Assembly (NCBI RefSeq): GCF_016097555.1
Contig: NC_054713.1
Location: forward strand, 40,850,793 to 40,914,792
Direction: 5' to 3'
Source: Gigantopelta aegis
Lineage: Eukaryota; Mollusca; Gastropoda; Neomphalida; Peltospiridae
DNA: 64,000 bases
A program made the translations under genes and the position numbers. Positions 11,108 to 62,341 of this stretch are shown piece by piece. Position 1 is the first letter of the stretch. Every line of letters begins with the position of its first letter. Under the pieces are notes generated by a model. The model did no database searches. It was not told the origin of the DNA and worked only from the letters and a program-made list of their open reading frames with translations.

Positions 11108-14100
11108 AAATGAAAAACTTAGCTATAGTTCATGTACTTACACTTGGATCCAATAATATTTCCAATCGAGTCGCAACACACGGCTTTTGTAGTGCCATTT
11201 ACTGAAAGAAAAACAATTATAAAATTTAATAAACAAACAAGCAAACAAACCACCCAACCAAGAAACAAACCAAACAATTAGCCAATTAACCATTCAACGA
11301 AAGAAATCACACAAGAAAAATTAAAAAAGTAAATAAAAAGTTAAAAAGAAGAAGATAAAAAAAATCTTCTTTTTTTTAAATTGTGTACATATAAATATAA
11401 TAAATGAATAAAATAAATAAACAAAATAAAATAAATACTAATTAAAACAAAATATATAAACAACATAAAATAAATACTAATTAAAACAAAATATATAAAC
11501 AAAATAAAATAAATACTAATTAAAACAAAATATATAAACAACATAAAATAAATTACTCACGGAAGAAAGTTCCTGTGCATCATTAAAATTTCAGTAAGAC
11601 GTATATTTTTAAAATTTAAAAATATTGTGTTTTACTTAGAAGTACTATTTATCTGTTAAAAGTAGAGTGATCTTCTCCTGTCTTCTGAACCTGACGTACG
11701 GTATACACAATGCTTGGTGCGCCGTCGATGACGATGTAACAGAATAGCGTATTGAAGTACTGTCATGGTCGTACTTTGTGATCACCTACTTGGATGCATA
11801 CAGTTCATCCACTGACTGGCCTTAATTCAGGGATGTATTGGGATGTTAAACTTGGAATTTTCAAATGATTCCATATGTTTACCCCCTTGATGTTGACGAT
11901 TTGTTAACGTGACGTCACGTGTCGACTCCCTAAACATGGAAGATCCGTAGTATCCCTAAACTGTCGAGAACATCTCCGCACACAGTGCATAGTTTTCTGA
12001 CGAACACCAATCAACACCAAAATTACCAGCAACAACGTTTGTGCCATTCTAACCTCAGTGACAGTCATACCCATCGTTCGAAGAAGTTAATTTTCGTGGA
12101 GGTGTGGCATCACACTGACGACGATCAAATACCAACAAAAGTATTTTTCTGAGTGATGAGAATCCATACAATAGTCCAATGATAAGAAAAATGTTGTTAA
12201 ACAGGAGCATCAGACCAAGAATGCTAGTGATGCAACTTGTGATCACAAAGCATGAATAGCTCGTTCAACTGACAGGACACCGCTTGAGTGATGAGAATCC
12301 ATACAATAGTCCAATGATAAGAAAAATGACGTTAAACAGGAGCATCAGACCAAGAATGCTAGTGATGCAACTTGTGATCACAAAGCATGAATAGCTCGTT
12401 CAACTGACAGGACACCGCTTGAGTGATGAGAATCCATACAATAGTCCAATGATAAGAAAAATGTTGTTAAACAGGAGCATCAGACCAAGAATGCTAGTGA
12501 TGCAACTTGTGATCACAAAGCATGAATAGCTCGTTCAACTGACAGGACACCGCTTGAATATTGAAGGGAGTGGTTACACGTTCATTTACTGAAATTTTTA
12601 TGACCAGATTCCAGGTATATTATATACTATATGCAATCATTTGGTGCACAGGAACATTTTTCCGCGAGTATATATGCGACACAAGCATATTAAGCGAGCA
12701 CTCAACCAACTGGGCTAAATCCCGCCCCGGACCAAAAACGGAGTACTACAAGAAAAGCTTTCAATTCTGGAAGAGTTTACACAAAGATGTTTGAAAAAAG
12801 TACTAGTTTAACTATATTTAAGAAACAAAATATACTCTTCAAAGAAAGTAGGGGAACCTGAAATATTAATGTTATACGTTTTGACCACAGACATCCTAGC
12901 AAAGAACGTTCAGGTCTGTTTATCAACACACCAAAACACATTACATAGTTTGCACATGCGTCACGCAGTTGCCCCGTACACGTGCGTGGGGTGTCATTCT
13001 CGATTTTGACTATGTCCAGGAATGTCCATTAATCACTGTGGAACATTATTTCTGTCAATCTTTTTCATTCTGTTGATCATACAATTGTTATTGTTTTGTT
13101 TTTAGTCATTTTTATTGTTTGAATTTGCGATTTACTGTTTAAAAAACGTCAACTTTCAAATTTCACTTCTGACCCTAATCTTCCTTCAAGATCTTTTGTG
13201 GTCATAAAACCTACTGTAATACTGAATTACCGGTTGTAATGTTTGCCCAATTAATTCACTATTATCATATAACCATTCCCCACAGCTAATATACTTTACA
13301 ATTTTGGCAATATAAACCGGACATCCATGGAACCAAATATTTGTCCGGCTCATAGAGATGTACGGTTTCCAGGTGTTTGCATTGATATAAAAACTTTTGT
13401 TGTACTCTGTCACCGACCTCGGTGAAGTTGTGGTTAAACCTTCGGACATAAAGCTGGTAGGTACAGGGTTCGCAGATCGGTACGGGCTCTCACCCAGAGC
13501 AAGTTTTAACGACTCAATGGGTAGGTGTAAGACCACTACACCCTCCTATCTCTCACTAACCACTACCAACTAACCACTAACTCGCTGTCCTGGACTGACA
13601 GCCCAGATAGTTGAGGTGTGTACCCAAGACAACGTGCTTGAACATTAAATGGATATAAGCAGGAAAATGAATTGAAATGAAATGTACTTTGTCGTTTGTT
13701 ACCGCTGGTACCTATTCATGTTCAGCTTTAAGTTGTATCAAACAGAAAATAATCCAATAAATAACCTTTAGAATATTTTAATGTGTGCTTAAATACTTTT
13801 AAAACTTTTAAAAGGACATTCCTGAGTTTGCTGCAGTTTTAATTATTGACTAACGATTGTAATTACATATTAACTATATTTTTCTGCATAAACAATTAGT
13901 GGCTGTATATTAAAAGTGTTTCTGATCGTTCTATTATGTGTATTAGGTTAAATTTCATTTTATTTGTTAAAATGTTTTTTTTGTCGTACGTACGAAATTA
14001 TTTGAAGACAAACTCTAATTTCGGCTTCTTGCAAATATTAAGATGACCAGAAACACATTGAATATACAGACACTGATATTCTAAACAATAAAATATATTT

Positions 14101-28884: not shown

Positions 28885-29089
28885 CAGTTAACTCGGGGGT
28901 TTAACGAAAACGCGGATCCCATCATCGGCTCTCATTACGGCAACAACAGTTATTCCCCTTTAATTCGGGGTTTTAACGAAAACACGGATCCTATCTTCGG
29001 CTCTCATTACGGCAACAATTATTCCCCTTTAACTCGGGGTTTTGAGAAAGCGCGGATCCCGTCTTCGTCTCTCATTACGACAGCAGGAG
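28885..29089 (-). repeat. Three tandem copies of the end of CYP4-A exon 11, past the stop
   Basis: Units of about 70 bases repeat the coding end GAAGATGGGATCCGCGTTTT through the stop region. The anchor ATTCGGGG/ACTCGGGG recurs at 28891, 28963, 29032 and 29103; the last lies in the genuine exon. They fall after the genuine stop and so would be in the 3' untranslated region. Confidence 0.85.
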
Positions 29090-29201
29090 TTATTCCCCTT
29101 TAACTCGGGGTTTAGCGAAAACGCGGATCCCATCTTCGGCTCTCATTACAGCAGCAACACATCGCCGGACTTCGTGTGTTGGGTCGACTTCCAGCGTGAA
29201 T
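29090..29201 (-). CDS. CYP4-A exon 11: C-terminus and stop
   Basis: Acceptor TCATCCATAG, phase 2 entry. It encodes [11 protein letters not shown] and [17 protein letters not shown], the last beta region of CYP4, then VKGE and stop at 29090. It matches CYP4-B exon 11 (AAVMRSEEGIHVFAKPR). Confidence 0.88.
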
Positions 29202-32200: not shown

Positions 32201-35200
32201 ACATGAATATTACCATGCTGTTGCTGCTGTTGCCGATGATGATAATAATGACGACGATGATGATAATGATGATGATGATGATGACGACTATGGTGATAAT
32301 GGTAATTATCACAAACAAGAGCAAAGGGAACAACAAGGTAAAGATGAAGATGAAGATGGGTGATGAAGAAGATGATGGTATTGTTGTTGTTGATGGTGAT
32401 GATGATGCTGGTGATGATAGAGGTGATGGTGGCGATGATGATATTGGCGATTGAGCAAACAATTTTGACGACGACAATTAACACTATTTTCAGCAATTAT
32501 CTACAATGCCCGTCTGTCCCATGCCCAGCTAAGTACTAGCCCTGCCAGAGACTGGGTGTGGGATGGACGTGCCTGAATCGTCATTGGATATAGGCACGTT
32601 AATCGAGTTTATACACACATACAATGCTCTTAGTTCTTGGAGAGAAACATTGGTCACAACTGTAGCTTGCAACTTCAAAATACAGGCTAAACAACTATGG
32701 GAGGGGGGACTTTCTTTTTTGACGTTCACCAACTATTTGTATGCACATGGTCTAAAGCAACCTACCACTCTATCTTGTCGACGTCCTTGTGTTCAAACAC
32801 CGCGTCCAGCTCCGCCTGAACCTGTTCCTGGATGTCCGGGTTGACGGCCAGGGAGTAGAGGATCCACGAGATGGCGCTAGCGGTGGTGTCGTGACCTGCA
32901 ACACAAACAACAGTCGTGGTGCACTGGCCTGGAACGAGAAATAGTCCAATTGGGCCCACCGACGGGAATCGATCCCAGACCGACTACGCATCAATCGAAC
33001 GCTTTACGACTGGACTAGCTACGTTCCGCCCCAATACAGATTAAAAGGGTGGTTTTGCGGGGTGTTTTAAATAAAATGTTTAAAGTCGCATACCCTAGTT
33101 TCAACTCGTGAAAATGGAAGCAAAGTTTGGTTAATTTACAAAACTGTAACACATTTCGATAACGTTACAACATAATGAAACAAGAGTCTGTGGCCCTAGT
33201 TGATAATCACTACAATGTACATTTCACTATTACAGCCATTTTTAATAATTGAAATCAGACATCGCTTAGATTTTCTTGCTTAAATTATTCGTATATCCGA
33301 AGTATTTCTGGTCATCCTGGTGTTTCTAATACCACGAAATGCATTTTTTTTAAAATGCACGTACCTGAGAGAAGTAATGGTTATGGAGACAAGCTCTAGT
33401 CTACTTTTTAGAGGTGTTTCCCCGTTTCAACGTCACAAACTCATGAGTTCAAACTGGGGTTTGCGACTTCACTATTTTTCGGTACTGTCTAGAATGTTCA
33501 CATACTATTGCTTCAACAAGAATTCAAAAGAGACCAAAGACTGACCTTCAAATACAAACGTATTCACTTCGTGTTTGATTTCCAAAGACTAACCTTCAAA
33601 TAGAAACGTATTCACTTCGTGCCTGATTTCCAAAGACTGACCTTCAAATAGAAACGTATCCGCTTCGTTTTCTGATTTCCAATGACTGACCTTCAAATAG
33701 AAACATATCCACTTCGTTTTCTGATTTCCAAAGACTAACCCTCAAATAGAAACGTATCCACTTCGTTTCTGATTTCCAAAGACTAACCTTCAAATAGAAA
33801 CGTATCCGCTTCGTTTTCTGATTTCCAATGACTGACCTTCAAATAGAAACATATCCACTTCGTTTTCTGATTTCCAAAGACTAACCCTCAAATAGAAACG
33901 TGTCCACTTCGTTTCTGATTTCCAAAGGTGTCAAGCCAACTCCATTTTCATCTTTCGCTGTCAGCAGGATGTCAAGGAAATCTAGATAGCGCTTTTCTGG
34001 TGGCCCTTCTTCTTCCTGTGGTTAAAATACGTTATCTTCTTCATTCGATAGGTCACTGAACATAATTCGTTATTTGTGAGAATTGAATTTCATCACACTA
34101 CAATAGATCTGTGAATCATGCAAATTCTAGGTAATTCGTATTTGATATCAGTTTGGGATTTTGTGTGTTTTTTTATGTTGATTTTTGGAAGGAAGGAAAT
34201 GTTTTATTTAACGACGCACTCAACACATTTTATTTACGGTTATATTGCATCGTACATATGGTTAAGGACCACACAGATATTGAGAGAGGAAACCCGCTGT
34301 CACCACTCCATGGACTACTCTTTTCGATTAGCAGCAAGGGATCTTTTACATGCACCATACCACAGACAGGATAGTACACACCACGGCCTTTGTTACACCA
34401 GTTGTGGAGCACTGTCTGGAACGAGAAATACCCCAATGGGCCCACCGTCGGGGATCGATCCTAGATCGATCGCACATTAGGCGAGCGCTGTACCACTGAG
34501 CTGCGTCCCGCCACTTGGTTTTTTTGGTTTTTGCTTGTTGATGTTTTTTTGAAGAGGATCGTTTTGGAAAATTATGAACTTTAGCCATTTGAATTGCACA
34601 TCCCGAGCTCATTAACATCTCCATAACCAGAGGGGGGCATGGACACCATGGCCCCTTCCCATAGGACAGTAATATTAAAGCCGCACACCCTAGTTCCATA
34701 AAGCGAAAATAAATTATAATTTGGTTAATCTACAAACCTGTAACACACTTAGATCACGTTGTTATCAAATGGAGTGAAAAAGCAGGTTTTATATCGATAA
34801 ATACCATGGGAATTCCCATGTCCCAATTGCTTGAAATAATTTTGAAAGTTAGTATTCTGATGTCACCGGTAGATGTCGCTCGAAGCACAACAATGCCTAC
34901 GTCACGACAAATTTCACAGAGTGCGCACAGACTTGTGGTGCGTTCTTTTCACCTCTCCTGGACATGTTCCAACTGTTCTGTCCTGGTTGTATCCCCTCTC
35001 CAGATATCGTAAGACTTAGCAAAATTATTGGTTTTAAGGGTTTGTAACGTTTTGTATTGAGACACTTACTTGTCTGAACTTTATTGTTACTGAAAATGTT
35101 CACGAACTGTGAAGAAAAATCTCACAAATGAACAACAAGCAAACGACAACAAATCAGATGTTGATTGCGCGAACCGTGCACGAGAAAACAAACCGAACCA

Positions 35201-37913
35201 AAAATGATAACGGTCACGTGGTATACCAACGTCTGTGACGTTTATACAGGAAGATTCGCTCTAAAAATAGATTGGACCTCGCTTGCTTAACGGTTTTTTC
35301 TCGAGTGCACGCCTGTTGTTAAGAAATACAAAAAATGCATTTCGTGGTTTTACAAAGATCAGGATTACCAGGATTACCAAAAAGCACTTCAGGTGAATGG
35401 AAATGTGTATTCTAAATAATAAAATGTAAGTAAAGTGCAATTTTATTTGTGAAAAAATGGGTTTAATAGCGAAAAACAACGCCGTAATGGTTAACAACTA
35501 GCCGTAACTAGGGCGTGTCCCTTTAAGGTATCCTAAATTATAACAAAAGAAAAACTAATGCTCAATGTTCCAATCTTAAACACGGCTTGTTCTTTCATTT
35601 TAATATGTTTATTCAAAACAACGAAAAGGAAGAAGAGCAATTTAAATGCATAGTTTTCAATTATTTCTATAAACTAAAAATAATATTTACTGGAAATGAG
35701 CGCTCGCTTGATGCGCGGTCGATCTACGATCGATTCCTGTCGGTGAGCCCATTGGGCTATTTCTTGTACTAGTAAGTGCACCACGACTGGTATATCAAAG
35801 GCCGTGGTATGTGCTATCCTGTCTGTGGGATAGTGCATATAAAAGATCCCTTCCTACTAGTGGAAACTGTAGCTGGTTTCCTCTCTAAGACTATGTCAAA
35901 ATTACCAAATGTTTGACATCCAATACCCGATGATTAATAAATCAATGTGCTCTAGTGGTGTCGTTAAACAAAACAAACCTTTTTTACTGGGAATGAAATC
36001 ATATGTATTGTGTTTCCCAGGTACAATACTACAATTAGGAAAAACAGGTTTTGTTTAGCTTTACATTTTGTTTTGGTATGTATATAATGTTGTGACTGGG
36101 TGTATTTATCTTTTAAAAAATTACCATATCTTAAAAATACGACCGTGCTATGTGCATTACTTCAAACTAAACGATATCCTACCAGAGTTTTCTTTCTTTT
36201 TTCTATTATCTCCTCTGATATGGAGTGCACAAATTTACACTGTTCCATAAACCGACGTCCATTCGCCGTCCGTCTGTAGATCCAGTCTAGGCAAAGGAGT
36301 GGATTCCTGAAGCAGAACAATGTAATAACCACAGTCAAATGATTAGATCCAGTCAAATAGTTCTTTACACAGAACAATACGGCCCTATTGCGTAATTCGT
36401 TAAAGTCACAATCGCAAGTATCATGAATGTTATTGTGCCATATTTTAAAGTCTGGAACTGACTATCAGTTGTTTGATAAAAGTTCTTATTATCAACTCCA
36501 TCGACCTGACTATCAGTTGTTTTATAAAAGTTCTTATTATCAACTCCATCGACCTGACTATCAGTTGTTTTATAAAAGTTCTTATTATCAACTCCATCGA
36601 CCTGACTATCAGTTGTTTTATAAAAGTTCTTATTATCAACTCCATCGAACTGACTATCAGTTGTTTTATAAATGTTCTTATTATCAACTCCATCGAACTG
36701 ACTATCAGTTGTTTTATAAAAGTTCTTATTATCAACTCCATCGAACTGACTATCAATTGTTTCATAAATGTTCTTATTATCAACTCTTGTAAAAATTTCG
36801 ACCTTGAAATATTTCAAAATGTCGACTCTCATAAACTTACCTTCCTCGATTAAACCACAGATGGGAGAGTTCATTGACAGCTTTCACGTACGGGTGACCG
36901 TCTCTGTAAATATATAAAATACAAATCTACAATATTTTTCTTAAATGAACCATGACGGGGAAAAATTAATAAAACGCGTATCAATTAGTAGGATTGTATT
37001 ATTGATATGCATCAATAACAAATATAACAATTCGGTGAACATTACTTGGTACTTGGTACTTGGTGCATAAAGCAGTAATATATTGTAGTACTACTGTGAG
37101 TTCTCAATGTATTGTTCATCTGTAGTATGCGTTACACTAGGTTAATGCACCAGCTGTGCATGGAGGGGGGAGGCGGGACGTTGCCCAGTGGTAAAGCGCT
37201 CGCCTAATGCGTGGTAGGTCTGAGATCAATCCTCGTCGGTAGGCCCACTGGGCTATTTCTCGTGCCAGCAGTGCACCACCATTTGTAAATTAAATACCGT
37301 GATATGTGCTATCCTGTCTGTGTGGTGGTGCATATATTGAGAATAATAATGGCGAAAGCGAGTTTGATACGTTTATAAATAACGAGTTGTAAAATAAATG
37401 GTATTTTAATTTAATCTAACGGACACGAATGTATTATTCTATTTCTTACATATGCGCAAAAAACAGGTTTCAAGCAAATTCTAACATCTTTTTCGATTAA
37501 AAGTTATTAACAGCCCTTGCATTTGTAGCTAACTTATGCGTCACAGGCAAATGAGTTTCAGGTTAACTATACGTCACAGTGTAATCGATTTCGATCGTGC
37601 TGGGTTTTTTTTCATTGGATGTATGGCATTGGTGACCTGATCATTACCTAGGAGCAGCCAGTCGTATGTCTTGAAATTATTAACACACGTACATGTGTAA
37701 ACAAGTTTGTGTTATCAAAAATAACGAATGATGTTCTCACCAACGGGTGTGTAAGAATTTTAATTTAAACAAGCATTATGAGAGTACAGCTAAAGCAATA
37801 CATGTCCCCTACCGGCTCCAAAACATGTTCGTATCTCCTAAGTTCAAAGGCCATAAATGGGTAATCGCCATGAAAGTTAAACTTGGTCTGTATCATAACA
37901 GTACATGATAAAG

Positions 37914-40900: not shown

Positions 40901-43900
40901 GTTATATTTTTCCATTAGTAGAACGGTATCTTTTATATGCACCATCCTATAGACAGGATAGTACATACCACGCCCTTTGATATACCAATCGTGGTGCACT
41001 GGCTGGAAGGGTAAATATTAATAGGATATATCAAAATAAAATAAAATATATACGAACGACTACTATGTTGGCAGCCTTGTTGTAGACTTCAATATATGGC
41101 TTTAAGATGTCGAAGTGAAACGCTGGGGTCAGCAGACGTCGTGACCGAGCCCACCTCTCACCCCCTGCTAATAATAGACCTTCCCCAAGCCACGGTAGCG
41201 CCAGTTGGTAACTACCTAACAGTCCTCTGGGTTTGGGTTCTGCAAGAAAAGCAATGTCATACAGATTATTCATAACTGGTCCTTGTAACTTGTAGTATTC
41301 ACATTTACATGTATGGGTCATAATTTGGTTGACATATTTGCCTGTTGTGTTTTTAACAACATACGTTAACACTGTCGCCATAATGATATGTAGAATATAT
41401 ATATTTGAAGAATTTAACAGGTTTTCTCTGAAGACTTCGTGCCACAACGGCCCGTAGAAACCGGGTTTGTGCTTGTATGATGTATCCCACACTTGATGAT
41501 GAAAATGTACGGGGTGTTTTTCTTACTCTATGTAAATAAATATCTGGCTTGTGCCCACTCCACCACTAGAGACTGTGCCCGGTACATTAGAGAGTGTGCG
41601 CTGTCCCCACAAACTCCAGCTATCATTCCTACGTGCCTGCACAATTACCAAATATTTAACATCCAATAGCTGATGATTAATTAATCTGCTCTAGGGGTAA
41701 ACAAAACAAAGTGTTAACTGTCTTTAAAACATACTGACCTGCATCGTTGCAAGCCAAGGTACCAATCCGTATGGTACACATACTGCATTTCATATTATCT
41801 AGTATTCTGTAGCAGTCTATACGGAATGACACCTTGGCGTGCACAGATGACCAACTAGCCCGAGTACTCTGACTGTAAGAGAGCAAGACGGATATTTGGA
41901 CAGTTATGACGTTCTCATTACCGTCAGAGAATAGTGTATATAAAAATTGCGCAATCTATGCCTACCAAAGATTCCAACTCTAATTATACAACAATAATCT
42001 TATGTTTGACGTTAAATACCTTTACATTGATAATTTTTGAATTATCTGATAACACACTTTTCACATATTAACCACTAATACACACAATACATACTCGACA
42101 GCACCCCCTTTCAGGTCAAGTCAGGTCAGAGTGTTTAACGTGCACATTCAGAACAAGCTGTTGTAGCGCACGCCTGTCCTGGGAACAGGTACCGGCCTCG
42201 GCCGGCTCCTCCGTCCAGGACAGGGAAGGGGAGGGGTGGGTTGGAGGGTCCGTCTTGCTCTCTTACGGTCAAAGTACTGTCCAAATGTCCGTCTTGTTCT
42301 CTTACGATCAGACTACTGTCCTAATGTCTGTCTTGCTCTCTCACGGTCAGAGTACTGTCCAAATGTCCTGTTCTCTTACGGTCAGGGTACTGTCCAAATG
42401 TCCGTCTTGTTCTCTTACGGTCAGAGTACTGTTCAAATGTCCTTCTCGTTCTCTTACGGACGGAGTACTGTCCAAATGTCCGTCTTGTTCTCTTACGGTC
42501 GGAGTACTGTCCAAATGTCCGTCTTGCTCTCTCACGGTCAAAGTACTGTTCAAATGTCCTTCTCGTTCTCTTACGGACGGAGTACTGTCCAAATGTCCGT
42601 CTTGTTCTCTTACGGTCGGAGTACTGTCCAAATGTCCGTCTTGCTCTCTTACGGACGGAGTACTGTCCAAATGTCCGTCTTGCTCTCTCACGGTCAAAGT
42701 ACTGTTCAAATGTCCTTCTCGTTCTCTTACGGACGGAGTACTGTCCAAATGTCCGTCTTGTTCTCTTACGGTCGGAGTACTGTTCAAATGTCCGTCTTGT
42801 TCTCTTACGGTCGGAGTACTGTCCAAATGTCCGCCTTGTTCTCTTACGGTCGAAGTACTGTCCAAATGTCCGTCTTGCTCTCTCACGGTCAAAGTACTGT
42901 TCAAATGTCCTTCTAGTTCTCTTACGGACGGAGTACTGTCCAAATGTCCGTCTTGTTCTCTTACGGTCGGAGTACTGTCCAAATGTCCGTCTTGCTCTCT
43001 TACGGACGGAGTACTGTCCAAATGTCCGTCTTGCTCTCTCACGGTCAAAGTACTGTTCAAATGTCCTTCTCGTTCTCTTACGGACGGAGTACTGTCCAAA
43101 TGTCCGTCTTGTTCTCTTACGGACGGAGTACTGTCCAAATGTCCGTCTTGCTCTCTTACGGTCGGAGTACTGTCCAAATGTCCGTCTTGCTCTCTCACGG
43201 TCAAAGTACTGTTCAAATATCCTTCTCGTTCTCTTACGGACGGAGTACTGTCCAAATGTCCGTCTTGTTCTCTTACGGTCAGAGTACTGTTCAAATGTCC
43301 TTCTCGTTCTCTTACGGACGGAGTACTGTCCAAATGTCCGTCTTGCTCTCTTACGGTCGGAGTACTGTCCAAATGTCCGTCTTGCTCTCTCACGGTCAGA
43401 GTACTGTTCAAATGTCCGTCTTGCTCTCTCACGGACAGAGTACTGTCCAAATGTCCTGTTCTCTTACGGTCAGAGTACTGTTCAAATGTCCGTCTTGCTC
43501 TCTCACGGTCAGAGTACTGTTCAAATGTCCGTCTTGCTCTCTCACGGTCAGAGTACTGTTCAAATGTCCGCCTTGCTCTCTCACGGTCAGAGTACTGTTC
43601 AAATGTCCGTCTTGCTCTCTCACGGTCAGAGTACTGTTCAAATGTCCGCCTTGCTCTCTCACGGTCAGAGTACTGTTCAAATGTCCGTCTTGCTCTCTCA
43701 CGGTCAGAGTACTGTTCAAATGTCCGCCTTGCTCTCTCACGGTCAGAGTACTGTTCAAATGTCCGTCTTGCTCTCTCACGGTCAGAGTACTGTCCAAATG
43801 TCCGTCTTGCTCTCTCACGGTCAGAGTACTGTCCAAATGTCCGTCTTGTTCTCTTACGGTCAGAGTACTGTTCAAATGTCCTTCTCGTTCTCTTACGGAC

Positions 43901-46900
43901 GGAGTACTGTCCAAATGTCCGTCTTGTTCTCTTACGGTCGGAGTACTGTCCAAATGTCCGTCTTGCTCTCTCACGGTCAAAGTACTGTTCAAATGTCCTT
44001 CTCGTTCTCTTACGGACGGAGTACTGTCCAAATGTCCGTCTTGTTCTCTTACGGTCGGAGTACTGTCCAAATGTCCGTCTTGCTCTCTTACGGACGGAGT
44101 ACTGTCCAAATGTCCGTCTTGCTCTCTCACGGTCAAAGTACTGTTCAAATGTCCTTCTCGTTCTCTTACGGACGGAGTACTGTCCAAATGTCCGTCTTGT
44201 TCTCTTACGGTCGGAGTACTGTCCAAATGTCCGTCTTGCTCTCTTACGGACGGAGTACTGTCCAAATGTCCGTCTTGTTCTCTTACGGACGGAGTACTGT
44301 CCAAATGTCCGTCTTGCTCTCATACGGTCGGAGTACTGTCCAAATGTCCGTCTTGCTCTCTCACGGTCAAAGTACTGTTCAAATGTCCTTCTCGTTCTCT
44401 TACGGACGGAGTACTGTCCAAATGTCCGTCTTGTTCTCTTACGGTCAGAGTACTGTTCAAATGTCCTTCTCGTTCTCTTACGGACGGAGTACTGTCCAAA
44501 TGTCCGTCTTGCTCTCTTACGGTCGGAGTACTGTCCAAATGTCCGTCTTGCTCTCTCACGGTCAGAGTACTGTTCAAATGTCCGTCTTGCTCTCTCACGG
44601 ACAGAGTACTGTCCAAATGTCCTGTTCTCTTACGGTCAGAGTACTGTTCAAATGTCCGTCTTGCTCTCTCACGGTCAGAGTACTGTTCAAATGTCTGTCT
44701 TGCTCTCTCACGGTCAGAGTACTGTTCAAATGTCCGCCTTGCTCTCTCACGGTCAGAGTACTGTTCAAATGTCCGTCTTGCTCTCTCACGGTCAGAGTAC
44801 TGTTCAAATGTCCGCCTTGCTCTCTCACGGTCAGAGTACTGTTCAAATGTCCGTCTTGCTCTCTCACGGTCAGAGTACTGTTCAAATGTCCGCCTTGCTC
44901 TCTCACGGTCAGAGTACTGTTCAAATGTCCGTCTTGCTCTCTCACGGTCAGAGTACTGTCCAAATGTCCGTCTTGCTCTCTCACGGTCAGAGTACTGTCC
45001 AAATGTCCGTCTTGTTCTCTTACGGTCAGAGTACTGTTCAAATGTCCTTCTCGTTCTCTTACGGACGGAGTACTGTCCAAATGTCCGTCTTGTTCTCTTA
45101 CGGTCGGAGTACTGTCCAAATGTCCGTCTTGCTCTCTCACGGTCAAAGTACTGTTCAAATGTCCTTCTCGTTCTCTTACGGACGGAGTACTGTCCAAATG
45201 TCCGTCTTGTTCTCTTACGGTCGGAGTACTGTCCAAATGTCCGTCTTGCTCTCTTACGGACGGAGTACTGTCCAAATGTCCGTCTTGCTCTCTCACGGTC
45301 AAAGTACTGTTCAAATGTCCTTCTCGTTCTCTTACGGACGGAGTACTGTCCAAATGTCCGTCTTGTTCTCTTACGGTCGGAGTACTGTCCAAATGTCCGT
45401 CTTGCTCTCTTACGGACGGAGTACTGTCCAAATGTCCGTCTTGTTCTCTTACGGACGGAGTACTGTCCAAATGTCCGTCTTGCTCTCTTACGGTCGGAGT
45501 ACTGTCCAAATGTCCGTCTTGCTCTCTCACGGTCAAAGTACTGTTCAAATGTCCTTCTCGTTCTCTTACGGACGGAGTACTGTCCAAATGTCCGTCTTGT
45601 TCTCTTACGGTCAGAGTACTGTTCAAATGTCCTTCTCGTTCTCTTACGGACGGAGTACTGTCCAAATGTCCGTCTTGCTCTCTTACGGTCGGAGTACTGT
45701 CCAAATGTCCGTCTTGCTCTCTCACGGTCAGAGTACTGTTCAAATGTCCGTCTTGCTCTCTCACGGACAGAGTACTGTCCAAATGTCCTGTTCTCTTACG
45801 GTCAGAGTACTGTTCAAATGTCCGTCTTGCTCTCTCACGGTCAGAGTACTGTTCAAATGTCCGTCTTGCTCTCTCACGGTCAGAGTACTGTTCAAATGTC
45901 CGCCTTGCTCTCTCACGGTCAGAGTACTGTTCAACTGTCCGTCTTGCTCTCTCACGGTCAGAGTACTGTTCAAATGTCCGCCTTGCTCTCTCACGGTCAG
46001 AGTACTGTTCAAATGTCCGTCTTGCTCTCTCACGGTCAGAGTACTGTTCAAATGTCCGCCTTGCTCTCTCACGGTCAGAGTACTGTTCAAATGTCCGTCT
46101 TGCTCTCTCACGGTCAGAGTACTGTCCAAATGTCCGTCTTGCTCTCTCACGGTCAGAGTACTGTCCAAATGTCCGTCTTGTTCTCTTACGGTCAGAGTAC
46201 TGTTCAAATGTCCTTCTCGTTCTCTTACGGACGGAGTACTGTCCAAATGTCCGTCTTGTTCTCTTACGGTCGGAGTACTGTCCAAATGTCCGTCTTGCTC
46301 TCTCACGGTCAAAGTACTGTTCAAATGTCCTTCTCGTTCTCTTACGGACGGAGTACTGTCCAAATGTCCGTCTTGTTCTCTTACGGTCGGAGTACTGTCC
46401 AAATGTCCGTCTTGCTCTCTTACGGACGGAGTACTGTCCAAATGTCCGTCTTGCTCTCTCACGGTCAAAGTACTGTTCAAATGTCCTTCTCGTTCTCTTA
46501 CGGACGGAGTACTGTCCAAATGTCCGTCTTGTTCTCTTACGGTCGGAGTACTGTCCAAATGTCCGTCTTGCTCTCTTACGGACGGAGTACTGTCCAAATG
46601 TCCGTCTTGTTCTCTTACGGACGGAGTACTGTTCAAATGTCCGCCTTGCTCTCTCACGGTCAGAGTACTGTTCAAATGTCCGTCTTGCTCTCTCACGGTC
46701 AGAGTACTGTTCAAATGTCCGTCTTGCTCTCTCACGGTCAGAGTACTGTCCAAATGTCCGTCTTGCTCTCTCACGGTCAGAGTACTGTCCAAATGTCCGT
46801 CTTGCTCTCTCACGGTCAGAGTACTGTTCAAATGTCCGTCTTGCTCTCTTACGGTCATAGTACTGTCCAAATGTCTGTCTTGTTCTCTTACGGTCAGACT

Positions 46901-49900
46901 ACTGTCCTAATGTCCGTCTTTTTCTCTTACGATCAGGGTACTGTACTAATGTCCGTCTTTTTCTCTTACGGTCAGGGTACTGTCCAAATGTCCGTCTTGC
47001 TCTCTCACGGTCAGAGTACTGTCCAAAGGTCCGTCTTGCTCTCTTACGGTCAGAGTACTGTTCAAATGTCCGTCTTGCTCTCTCACGGTCAGAGTATTGT
47101 CCAAATGTCCGTCTTGCTCTCTTACGGTCAGAGTACTGTTCAAATGTCCGCCTTGCTCTCTCACGGTCAGAGTACTGTTCAAATGTCCGTCTTGCTCTCT
47201 CACGGTCAGAGTACTGTTCAAATGTCCGTCTTGCTCTCTCACGGTCAGAGTACTGTTCAAATGTCCGTCTTGCTCTCTCACGGTCAGAGTACTGTTCAAA
47301 TGTCCGTCTTGCTCTCTCACGGTCAGAGTACTGTCCAAATGTCCGTCTTGCTCTCTCACGGTCAGAGTACTGTCCAAATGTCCGTCTTGCTCTCTCACGG
47401 TCAGAGTACTGTTCAAATGTCCGTCTTGCTCTCTTACGGTCAGAGTACTGTTCAAATGTCCGCCTTGCTCTCTCACGGTCAGAGTACTGTTCAAATGTCC
47501 GTCTTGCTCTCTCACGGTCAGAGTACTGTCCAAATGTCCGTCTTGCTCTCTCACGGTCAGAGTACTGTCCAAATGTCCGTCTTGCTCTCTCACGGTCAGA
47601 GTACTGTCCAAATGTCCGTCTTGCTCTCTTACGGTCAGAGTACTGTTCAAATGTCCGTCTTGCTCTCTCACGGTCAGAGTATTGTCCAAATGTCCGTCTT
47701 GCTCTCTTACGGTCAGAGTACTGTTCAAATGTCCGTCTTGCTCTCTCACGGTCAGAGTACTGTTCAAATGTCCGTCTTGCTCTCTCACGGTCAGAGTACT
47801 GTTCAAATGTCCGTCTTGCTCTCTCACGGTCAGAGTATTGTCCAAATGTCCGTCTTGCTCTCTTACGGTCAGAGTACTGTTCAAATGTCCGCCTTGCTCT
47901 CTCACGGTCAGAGTACTGTTCAAATGTCCGTCTTGCTCTCTCACGGTCAGAGTACTGTTCAAATGTCCGTCTTGCTCTCTCACGGTCAGAGTACTGTTCA
48001 AATGTCCGTCTTGCTCTCTCACGGTCAGAGTACTGTCCAAATGTCCTGTTCTCTTACGGTCAGAGTACTGTTCAAATGTCCGTCTTGCTCTCTTACGGTC
48101 AGAGTACTGTTCAAATGTCCGTCATGCTCTCTTACGGACAGAGTACTGTCCAAATGTCCGTCTTGCCCTCTTTCGGACAGAGTACTGTCCTTATCTCCGT
48201 CTTGCTCTGGTACTCGGGCTAATGACTGACCTGAAGTCTTCATGACTTTCTTCATCGTGTCAGGATGGTGCAGGATAATCACGGGTTTGAAAGGCCCAAA
48301 CCAGAACCTCATTATCTTCGTGTACTTTAGCATCATCCCGTTGAAGTAGTTCAGACGCTCTTCGCTCACTTTGCTCAGCTTTTAAAACAAAACAAAAACA
48401 AAAACGATATACAGGAATTCCTCAGACCTACTTTCGGGAAGCATCTAAGATTAAAAGTTGACAAATCGGAGATGGTTTTGAAGTAGAGATGTAATACCAA
48501 TACATATATAGATAGATTGTGGCCGATTTTAGGTGAGTGGCAACTTTCTGGGGGTTGATACACACTCTCGCCCCCTCCCCGCCTCTGCTCATAGTGAATT
48601 TTCTTTTTAATATATTTTTCGGGGAGGTATGACTCGACCCCCTACCCTAGAATATTCGCTCGCCTAACCCTCCCCACCCCCACCCACCCCAACCGTTGAA
48701 TAAAATTCTTGCACACAACTTTTATAAAATTAAGATGGTTGCCATATTACTAAAATTACAATTTCAGAATCTTAGAAACAAAAATTCAAAGGCTATGACA
48801 AAGATCCGACGGTATGCTCAGTGGAAATATTTCCAATTTAACGTATGTATCTTTTGGATCATTGGACGTGTGTGTAGGGTGGGGGTGGGGGTGTGGTGCG
48901 GAAGTGGATCCTAAATCACCTCAGATCTAGAGACCATGTTGAGAAAATAAGGAAAGTTGCAAAGTCTGTATCGTGCTTAATTAACAGTCGAATCTATTAT
49001 AAACCATCAGTTTACAAGCCTTGAAATAAAACATTTTAGTGTACCTGACACAATGTCCTGCACCAATCAATTTGTGCCCGACATGAAAGAAATTGTACCG
49101 GTCACAAAACATTGTAAATAAAAATGAAATAAATTATGTTTTGTGTTGTTTAATAATTGATATATTTAATTACTAAATAACCAATGCAGCAATTACGGCA
49201 ATAGTCACCAAATGATGACATTTATTATTGTTACATACTTACTAGTCTATGGTGCATTAATATATGTCCTCTGGTAAAGCTGTATCCTAACCAGCCACGA
49301 GCTACATGAGCGATTATTTTAGAAATCATGGATTTTAATTGCCGTATCCTAACCGCACGCGTGCGACGCGACATATAAATCTGTCGCGTCGCGCGCGTAC
49401 TTAGGATGCGGCAATGGAAGTCAATGATTTCTAAAATAATCGCTCGCGGCCGGTTAGGATAGGGCTTAAGAAACCCATTAAACTGTTGTCGCTATCAGTT
49501 TGTGTTGAACTTTCAGATTCATGATGATCTGACTCAGACTCATCCATTTTTTTCAATGTCATCAGTGTCTTGTTTGTGGTAATATTCTATATTTTTGGTT
49601 GCCGAGTGATCTTTAGCATTTGACACACGCAGATTTGTGGACTCTTTGATCCATGCGGATACTGGGAACAGGGACAGTTGATTTGTTATTATCGGTACCT
49701 GTCTGTTCTTTTACAGCAAAGAATGAAGTTATTTTGTTCAACATCCTTTAATTGTTAACCACGAGGCAATCTGAATTGCAAACTTGAAACGAAAACGCCA
49801 CAGGAACTATACGCTAAGTACGAAAGGTCAATTACTAATATGCGTGACATCACTTTTCACAATGTAAGTTCCCGCAAAATCGAGACTATAAAAAATCCTA

Positions 49901-59821: not shown

Positions 59822-62341
59822 CTTAAATAAAAACAAAAAAGAAAAAATTAATACAAGAAATGCAGGGATTTATCCAATTTAGACAGCATCCAGTGTTTAG
59901 GAAGGAAGGAAATGTTTTATTTAACGACGCACAGAACACATTTTATCATTGATGAAAGAGGAAACCCGCTCTCGCCACTTCATGTGCTACTCTTTTCGAT
60001 TAACAGCAAGGGATCTTTTATATACACCATCCCACAGACAGAAGAGTACCTACCATGGCCTTTGTTACACCAGTTGGGGAGCACTGGCTGGAATGAGAAA
60101 TAGCCCAATGGGTCCACCGACGGGAATCGAGCCTAGATCGATCGCGCTGTACCACTGTCAGTGTTTAGAGAGTCACATTTTAGAATTAAGACAATTTGGG
60201 AACATTAAATGTGTCTGGTTTTGACATGATTTCAGTTTGTTCAGGGTCCAGTTTATACAGGTTTCATTGTAATAGTACAGCACATGGATTATAGGGAGGG
60301 AGATAGTTCACTTTTTTTTATCAACATTTTCATGAGTATACAAACTGTACAATGGGAAATGGAGGTGGGTATACTGGGATTTGTAACATCTGGTTTATAA
60401 AAAAATCTGCCCCCTTTCTGACACCAGCCTATCCATATTATCACATATTGATTTAGTGGTGTACACCCAGTGTTTATGTGCATAATTGTATGGGACTTGT
60501 CAACATCAAATAGGCTGAAAATTAGTTTCGTCCCTCCACAAAAAAACATAATAAATAATTTGAAAAAAAATAATTTAAAGAATTTTTTTTATTTAATTCT
60601 CAAGACAAGGGATGTACACCCTACTCACATAGTCTCTACAGGTGGCCCCTGTCTAATTACAACCAGGTAGTAGCAAGTAGCAAAGCTTGTGTATTGAAAC
60701 TCTAAACGACCAAACAACTACAGTGCGAGTAAAATTCTTAATTAATACAAACCGGTGAAGAATTCGGGCCAGAATTACTTTCTCCTCATTCATAGCAAAA
60801 TGTTGCCCAATGCAGTTTCTGAAAGAAAAAGGAGAACACCTTTTAAAATTCAACAAAAAACACACAGGGCCAGATTAACAAAAACTTTATATTTTATTTT
60901 ATATTTATTTATATAGAGTAGGATAAACAAATGTACATTTGTGACCCCCTTTTTTTAACAATGGGTTTACCATTTTTATTTCACAGAAGTCAAACGTTTA
61001 TTGAAGAGCCCTTGTGTCATTAATCCCCTCCTAAATATTTATCCTGGGTCTGCCCAAGCAGCTCAGCTGTGCCCAGGACAGTGTGCTTGAACCGTACATG
61101 GATATAACATGAAACAATGTTAAAAAATCAATCAATCATAGCTGGGCCTGGCTAAAAAATGGCAGAAATGCATAATGTTCTTTGATAATGCTGTGGATAT
61201 TGAGTCGTGCTTGGAACTGGGATAGGACAGAATATTGTTGCAAGCTACATCTAGATCTGATTTTTCGCAATAATATCCTGTTCGCATTAATTTCCTGAGT
61301 AATTAAATCATACCTGGGCCCCGCTGAAAACGACAGAAATGCGTAATGATCTTTGCAGTTTGTATTCCGAGGCAGAAATCGTGTGGGTCGGAGCTGGGAA
61401 GGGACAGAAGATTATCGTCGGCTGCATCTAGACCCATGTTTTTTGCAATAAATTATGATAAAAATGCCAGAAACGCATAATAGTTTTCAGTGGCATAGCG
61501 TGGGTTGCCAGCGCCCGGGGCAAGGCAAGTATTGTGCCCCCTAACCAGTGGACCGTTAGCACTCCCCCGAGTCCCTTCTACCAGTCCAGAATTTTGCACC
61601 CTGGGCAACCGCCCACGCTATGCCACCAATGGTTTTTGATATTGGTATTCTGTGGAAGAATAATGGGACAGAATATTATCGCAAACTACATCGATACGTT
61701 TTGCAGTAACATCTTATTAGCATTAATTTCCTAAGTAATGAAACATACCAGTCTTTGCATTTTGAATTCTGTGGCAACCAATTCGGGGCGGAACTGAGCT
61801 GGGACAATATTACTACAAACTACATCTAGACAGTCCTTTTTGCAATAACATCTTGTTCGTATTAATTTCCTACGGTAAGTAAATAAATCATACCTGGCCC
61901 CAGCTGAAAATGGCAGATATGCGTAATCGTCTTTGCTATTTGTATTCTATGGCAGAAACCGGTCGGGTCATAAATAGGATGGGGCAGAATATTATTGCGA
62001 GCTATATTTTTTTTTTCTCAATAATATCCTGTTTGCGTTAATTTCCTCAGTAAATATCATACCTGGGGCCAGCTGAAAATGGCAGAAATGCATAATGATC
62101 TTTGCTGTTTGTATTCTGTGGCAGAAACCGGTCGGGTCGGAATTCAGACGGATCTTCCCAGACCGTGGGGTTGTGGTGAAGATTCATTATGTGAGCGGAA
62201 CACATCGTCCCCGTGGGGATCGTGATCCCATCAACCTCCAGCGGCTCCGTGAGGTATCTCTGTACAAACGGAACCGGGCAGTGCATGCGCAGTCCTTCCT
62301 TTATTACTCGAGTCAAGTATTCAAAGTGAGACAGGTCATTC
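59707..62341 (-). CDS. Cytochrome P450, CYP4 type (CYP4-B), last three exons; partial at window edge
   Basis: Exons 62063-62341 (279 bases), 60753-60818 (66) and 59707-59821 (115) match CYP4-A exons 9-11 in phase, splice positions and, for the first two, exact length. It encodes ExxR (RVIKEGLRMHCP), [32 protein letters not shown] and a C-terminus ending FAKPRIKGNN. Exons 1-8 are not visible in 62342-64000 and presumably lie beyond the right edge. Same family role as CYP4-A (ER mono-oxygenase). The pair is a head-to-tail duplication. Degenerate copies of exon 9's end fill intron 9. The gene is intact over what is seen. Confidence 0.9.
59897..60162 (-). repeat. tRNA-derived SINE, with internal tail deletion
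   Basis: GGAAATGTTTTATTTAACGA tail, core GGGATCTTTTATATACACC, head decayed near CGATCGCGCTGTACC. In intron 10 of CYP4-B. Confidence 0.82.
60753..60818 (-). CDS. CYP4-B exon 10: heme-binding loop
   Basis: Acceptor TTCTTTCAG, donor GTTTGT. It encodes [20 protein letters not shown] and H. Confidence 0.93.
61120..62062 (-). repeat. About five degenerate tandem copies of the end of CYP4-B exon 9 plus donor and intron start
   Basis: Copies near 61137, 61309, about 61450-61640 (interrupted), 61744 and 61888 repeat the genuine block at 62058-62140: donor complement ATACCTGGGGCCAGCTGAAA, the TGGCAGAAA.GCATAATGATC stretch and the intron stretch CAATAATATCCTGTT..CATTAATTTCCT. Spacing is about 145-172 bases. 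Copies contain stops and frame shifts, for example a stop after DRFLP in the 61888 copy. Confidence 0.88.
61487..61627. repeat. Palindromic element inserted into one of the exon 9 copies
   Basis: Left AGTGGCATAGCGTGGGTTGC and right GCCCACGCTATGCCACC are inverted. About 140 bp, splitting a duplicated unit. Confidence 0.75.
62063..62341 (-). CDS. CYP4-B exon 9: ExxR to heme-loop start
   Basis: Acceptor TTAATATTCAG, donor GTATGA. It encodes [20 protein letters not shown] and [20 protein letters not shown]. Identical exon length to CYP4-A. Confidence 0.95.

Follow-up and report, generated by a model that had tools for sequence, protein, structure and literature searches.

We analyzed a cytochrome P450 gene of the CYP4 family (gene A) of the deep-sea hydrothermal-vent snail Gigantopelta aegis (Neomphalina, Peltospiridae), in which the end of exon 7 and its splice donor are repeated in tandem, within a stretch of 64,000 nucleotides of contig NC_054713.1 (the window; G000:C15:40850793-40914792). 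Gene A, named 'cytochrome P450 4F1-like' in RefSeq, extends over positions 29090 to 53226 of the window, on the minus strand. Its exons 2 to 6 are located at 48378-48231, 41239-41058, 38417-38293, 36903-36841 and 36306-36183, and its exons 7 to 11 at 34015-33886, 32895-32766, 32168-31890, 31123-31058 and 29201-29090; a probable exon 1 was located within 53226-53053 by a 46% match only, and the first coding exon of the RefSeq isoform X2 is at 41793-41740. Exons 2 to 11 form an open frame of 452 amino acids with no internal stop, and all nine intervening introns have GT and AG borders. The deposited G. aegis protein 'cytochrome P450 4F1-like isoform X2' (P0121) matched 89% of the query at 100% identity, with no mismatch along exons 3 to 11, and it spans the junction of exons 7 and 8 with the first donor joined to exon 8 (32766-32895). 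PF00067 was found on P0121 and on the other protein matches listed. The product of gene A contains the P450 I-helix motif FEGHDTT and the heme loop FSAGPRNCIGQ, which are marks of the CYP4 family, and we take the glutamate of the exon 7 motif to be the heme-linking residue. Gene A is an intact CYP4 gene, and the CYP4 identity, the orientation and the exon boundary proposed by a first-pass annotation of this DNA are correct.

Exon 7 (33886-34015, 130 bp) begins after a CCACAG acceptor and ends with GAG G|GTTAGT, a phase 1 donor that splits a glycine codon (G|GTTAGT). Its boundary with intron 7 is covered by a tandem array at 33534-33927, made of eight units of 48-49 bp and the partial start of another. 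Tandem Repeats Finder (TRF) described this array with a period of 49 (8.1 copies, score 627) and also with a period of 146 (score 704), far above chance, and units 1 to 8, numbered in gene order, together extend from 33926 to 33539. Each unit consists of 41-42 bp of exon 7 sequence followed by GTYAGTC. Unit 1 (33879-33926) is the functional one and joins the terminal 41 bp of exon 7 to the initial 7 bp of intron 7. The last exonic bases of the eight donors are at positions 33886, 33837, 33788, 33740, 33691, 33642, 33594 and 33546, with successive spacings of 49, 49, 48, 49, 49, 48 and 48 bp. Units 1, 3, 4 and 7 have the donor GTTAGT, units 2, 5, 6 and 8 have GTCAGT, and GT is kept in all eight. 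These coordinates and the TRF result agree with the first-pass annotation, which had described the exon 7 end and its donor as present eight times in tandem, with seven extra copies of 48-49 bp.

Comparison of the units with one another showed that units 1 to 3 (33781-33926) and units 4 to 6 (33635-33780) are two copies of a trimer (blastn aligns 249 bp at 95.2% with a shift of 146), which differ by only 1, 0 and 1 alignment columns in their respective units. The duplication of this trimer, which included the functional end of exon 7 itself, is therefore the latest large event in the array. The same trimer had been reported with plus-strand numbering, as units 3-5 and 6-8, and the amplification in at least two steps that was deduced from it holds. 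Units 2 to 8 differ from unit 1 by 5, 5, 1, 5, 6, 5 and 7 columns, respectively. Divergence is greatest in units 7 and 8 (33539-33634), at the end towards the intron, which differ from units 1 to 6 by 4-8 columns, eight being the maximum between any two units. The interior of the array is thus homogenised while these units at one edge stand apart.

The exonic part of the copies has drifted. The peptide of the exon 7 end, said earlier to be repeated with the GT in each unit, is exact in units 1 and 4 only, so that unit 4 is the sole extra copy to keep it. Units 2, 3, 5 and 6 contain one extra A each and are consequently out of frame; when this base is ignored, a T-to-M replacement is found in units 2 and 5 and a V-to-A replacement in units 3 and 6. 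Units 7 and 8 both contain N-to-H and D-to-N replacements, and unit 8 also contains R-to-K and L-to-V. The donor columns were no more conserved than the rest of the unit (2 of 9 against 10 of 40 columns variable, Fisher p = 1.0), a comparison of low power on eight related units.

An in-frame TAG follows the first donor, as had been annotated, and it is reached at codon 45 of exon 7 from each of donors 2 to 8, whose joining to exon 8 would add 49-340 nt to the message. This TAG precedes the heme-binding region, and several exon junctions lie downstream of it. By an established rule, messages with an early stop and downstream exon junctions are expected to be degraded, and messages spliced from a later donor of gene A should therefore be degraded as well.

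Tandem repeats that extend over exon/intron boundaries have been described in lancelets under the name of mirages (PMC3087553). Those of the lancelet globin genes BflGb6 and BflGb9 have units of 150-160 bp, present in 6 and 3 copies in two haplotypes, evolve in concert and affect both donor and acceptor sides; reverse transcription PCR (RT-PCR) suggests that splicing is normal despite their presence, and the same source cites from Canestro 2002 a mirage of Adh3 with units of 10-72 bp (PMC3087553). PGBD5, with repeats termed imperfect, and troponin C were added later, and no aberrant mRNAs are reported to arise from the duplicated splice sites of lancelet Adh and troponin C (PMC3902484). In human genes of segmental duplications, internal tandem repeats have also been found at exon-intron boundaries, some of which are reported to form new introns or alternative transcripts (PMC2812944).

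The array of gene A has the structural marks of a mirage: every copy of its unit crosses the exon/intron boundary and combines coding with intron sequence, the authentic exon is intact, and the homogenised interior with a diverged edge is the mark of concerted evolution seen in mirages. It differs from the lancelet cases in its gastropod CYP4 host, its units of 48-49 bp and its eight donors, and in being known from genomic sequence; the length polymorphism and the RT-PCR results are lancelet data, whereas a single assembly was available here. The array also resembles the human repeats of PMC2812944, minisatellites that lie where exons and introns meet in genes of recent duplications, although new introns or alternative transcripts are reported for some of them and the snail case is known from DNA and a predicted protein. 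Among the literature matches listed (titles and beginnings of abstracts, most subscription papers being outside the search), no mirage from a mollusc was found; one abalone paper among them concerns an ordinary intron minisatellite. The structure had been called unusual, which is fair at large, yet it belongs to a kind that already has a name and further cases are present in the neighbouring gene B. The array of gene A is a new case of this kind and may widen it, beyond lancelets and the human IFI6 gene, to gastropods.

It is likely that this array is a neutral mirage minisatellite and that transcripts of gene A are spliced from the first donor. We infer that a short tandem duplication, possibly primed by CTTTGG, which is present in exon 7 and again behind the last donor of the array, happened to include the 3' end of exon 7 with its donor, and that the array then expanded by slippage or unequal exchange, with the duplication of the trimer as its latest large step. 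Splicing from the first donor would remove copies 2 to 8 with the intron, and these copies would be close to neutral because they leave with it. A message made from a later donor would run into the TAG of codon 45 and be removed as unproductive. Two proposals had been made for the array, a decoy-donor switch or buffer of expression and a neutral product of slippage, and the latter is the better supported.

This reading is favoured by the open frame of gene A, the joining of donor 1 to exon 8 in P0121, the lack of the array in six paralogous exon 7s, the replacements and insertions in the copies, donor columns as variable as the others, the commonness of arrays in this DNA and the undisturbed splicing reported for lancelet mirages. 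A protein search with the peptide of exons 2 to 7 is also in its favour: at E <= 1e-100 its one match was P0121, and a truncated form ending at FLFEG was not among the results. This is weak evidence, as such products are seldom deposited and one of the two members of the P0121 cluster was inspected. Several observations weigh against the reading. P0121 is a predicted model, and its construction may favour an open frame. Mirage splice signals could serve as cryptic sites, as noted for the lancelet globins (PMC3087553). Moreover, the donors of the copies are about equal to the first. With a matrix of 33 donors from four G. aegis CYP4 genes (a small set that includes donor 1, and from which the rows of gene X, 6 of 39, were left out), donor 1 scored 9.2 and the seven copies 8.2-9.6. 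The predicted pairing with U1 was -6.1 kcal/mol for donor 1 and for unit 4, and -6.5 or -6.7 kcal/mol for the others. The choice of the first donor is thus not explained by the donor sequence. The best-scoring GT of intron 7 (10.0, above the array donors) lies outside the array at 33364 on the minus strand (TACTTCTCTCAG|GTACGTG), and has the shape of a recursive splice site with a zero-length exon, although intron 7 measures only 990 bp.

The human IFI6 (6-16) gene also weighs on this side, since two downstream units of its minisatellite, which contains several donors, are reported to serve as donors, with three mRNA species made (PMC4526556). The geometry in the snail is the same, with several splice donors provided by a minisatellite where an exon ends, and productive use of the later donors would, as in IFI6, yield several mRNA species and isoforms. 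However, a productive array of the IFI6 type calls for a frame that stays open through the later units, whereas each later donor of gene A includes the in-frame TAG, so that protein variants of the IFI6 type are ruled out by frame and no longer protein would be made, barring readthrough. Productive alternative donors are accordingly given almost no chance here.

The array has no counterpart in six paralogous exon 7s, around which no near direct repeat was found; in gene B and four other paralogues, the sequence around the exon 7 donor showed a single donor. Near direct repeats (within 2 kb) were sought around 74 exon matches in seven CYP4 genes (264 kb), for which exon ends outside gene A are approximate and short repeats at boundaries could be missed. 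Six of the 148 exon boundaries were inside a near repeat, namely the donor of exon 7 and the end of exon 11 of gene A (A7 and A11), the donor and the acceptor of exon 9 and the donor of exon 3 of gene B (B9 and B3), and the end of exon 11 of gene X (X11). The last was dropped as an array, as its only match is one of 76% at a distance of 1.35 kb. The end of B3 had been set 22 bases off, and its true donor is still inside the repeat.

Intron 3 of gene B, which lies past the end of the window (G000:C15:40921383-40925158), contains 62 exact TGGTTAGT octamers, the true donor included. Most are 53 bp apart; the first is the true exon 3 donor, which the second follows at exactly 53 bp. An in-frame TGA is present behind the first donor, and GT is lost in 4 of 67 related units. 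The mean conservation of the donor window was 0.93, against 0.86 elsewhere (rank 11 of 45 windows), a value biased upward because the motif by which units were chosen covers the donor, and this array gives no support either way to extra conservation of its donors. Decayed copies of the end of exon 9 are also found in gene B (62554-61130, minus strand; five near-repeat matches), where CAG|GTATGAT is at 62062 (the true donor), 61893 and 61313 and a mutated CAG|CTATGAT is near 61141; partial copies of the exon start are upstream, within 62554-62386.

These arrays bear on the other proposal, in which the seven extra donors of exon 7 would compete for U1 and the transcripts spliced from them, on meeting the TAG, would be destroyed, so that copy number would set the amount of enzyme. 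The GT kept by all seven extra donors, their scores, which are like those of used donors, the same early stop reached from all seven and the 62 octamers of gene B with a stop behind the first are in line with it. Against it stand the donor columns without excess conservation, the drift of the coding part of the copies, the truncated form missing from the protein collection, the six paralogous exon 7s without an array and the lancelet mirages, which are reported to give no aberrant mRNAs (PMC3902484). The sequence gives no support to such a decoy-donor switch, which we consider unlikely. The 8 donors at exon 7 of gene A and the 62 octamers at exon 3 of gene B both start with the true donor, and in both an in-frame stop follows it. 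Donor arrays as a recurring regulatory feature of the snail CYP4 cluster are, in our view, decidedly improbable; if they were such a feature, these two would be independent arrays whose repeat copy number would tune the share of unproductive splicing and, through it, the level of the CYP4 enzymes.

Comparison with the repeat background showed that no special cause is needed for the position of these arrays. Minisatellites covered 7.6% (0-16%) and near direct repeats 12.7% (2-25%) of five random 10-kb stretches (50 kb), while the corresponding values in four CYP4 segments were 3-11% and 6-18%. In-register copies were found at the donors of 3 of the 66 introns of the seven CYP4 genes (A7, B9 and B3), a number that a minisatellite coverage of 7.6% suffices to explain. 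Enrichment of arrays over splice sites was rejected for genes A and B (3 of 20; P = 0.19 at 7.6% and P = 0.48 at 12.7%) and for all seven genes (3 of 67, P = 0.89 at 7.6%; 67 was used in this test for 66 introns), with a baseline of only five stretches ranging from 0 to 16%. Clustering of arrays at donors was rejected as well, since only 6 of the 17 intron arrays listed are nearer the donor than the acceptor; a single intron of gene X accounts for seven of them all.

We also considered whether assembly had falsely multiplied a single unit or lengthened a shorter array. Tandem repeats are a common site of assembly error, a single assembly was used, and the two copies of the trimer differ at 2 columns only, which makes one trimer more or less the weakest point. 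However, the array is shorter than 400 bp and its units differ by up to 8 columns, so that a false array is improbable, and the published G. aegis assembly (1.15 Gb in 15 pseudo-chromosomes) is described as based on PacBio Sequel long reads with Illumina correction and Hi-C (PMC7895826). We regard an artefact as very unlikely.

The copies could also supply material from which a new intron or exon is formed, since any of them might become an exon once an acceptor arises, as proposed for the lancelet globins. The mirage model of intron gain (PMC3087553) and other reports of intron gain by tandem duplication are consistent with this, whereas an exon of this sort is absent from the deposited protein and 4 of the 8 copies are shifted in frame, and there is only a slight chance that the array serves in this way. 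Single units as micro-exons were dropped, as there is no pyrimidine tract and no space for an intron between units.

The array is a natural experiment on how the splicing machinery, faced with eight or even 62 near-identical donors in succession, selects the first, and the presence of several donor arrays in two neighbouring genes adds to its interest. Genomes rich in minisatellites may contain many further cases, which gene annotators should expect.

Other tandem repeats are present in and around gene A. At its 3' end (28888-29159, minus strand), the final 70 bp of the coding part, including the stop, are repeated about 3.8 times with a unit of 71 bp, into the 3' untranslated part, and the first copy yields the deposited C-terminus. 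Intron 2 contains 153 copies of a 39-bp unit (42248-48208), which begin 22 bp behind the donor and whose consensus includes a donor-like CCGTAAGAG on the strand of the gene. Intron 5 (534 bp) contains 6.9 copies of a 48-bp unit at 36455-36786, with no match to the neighbouring exons. Elsewhere in the window, a 135-bp unit is present in three copies at 12150-12557, with 98% matches.
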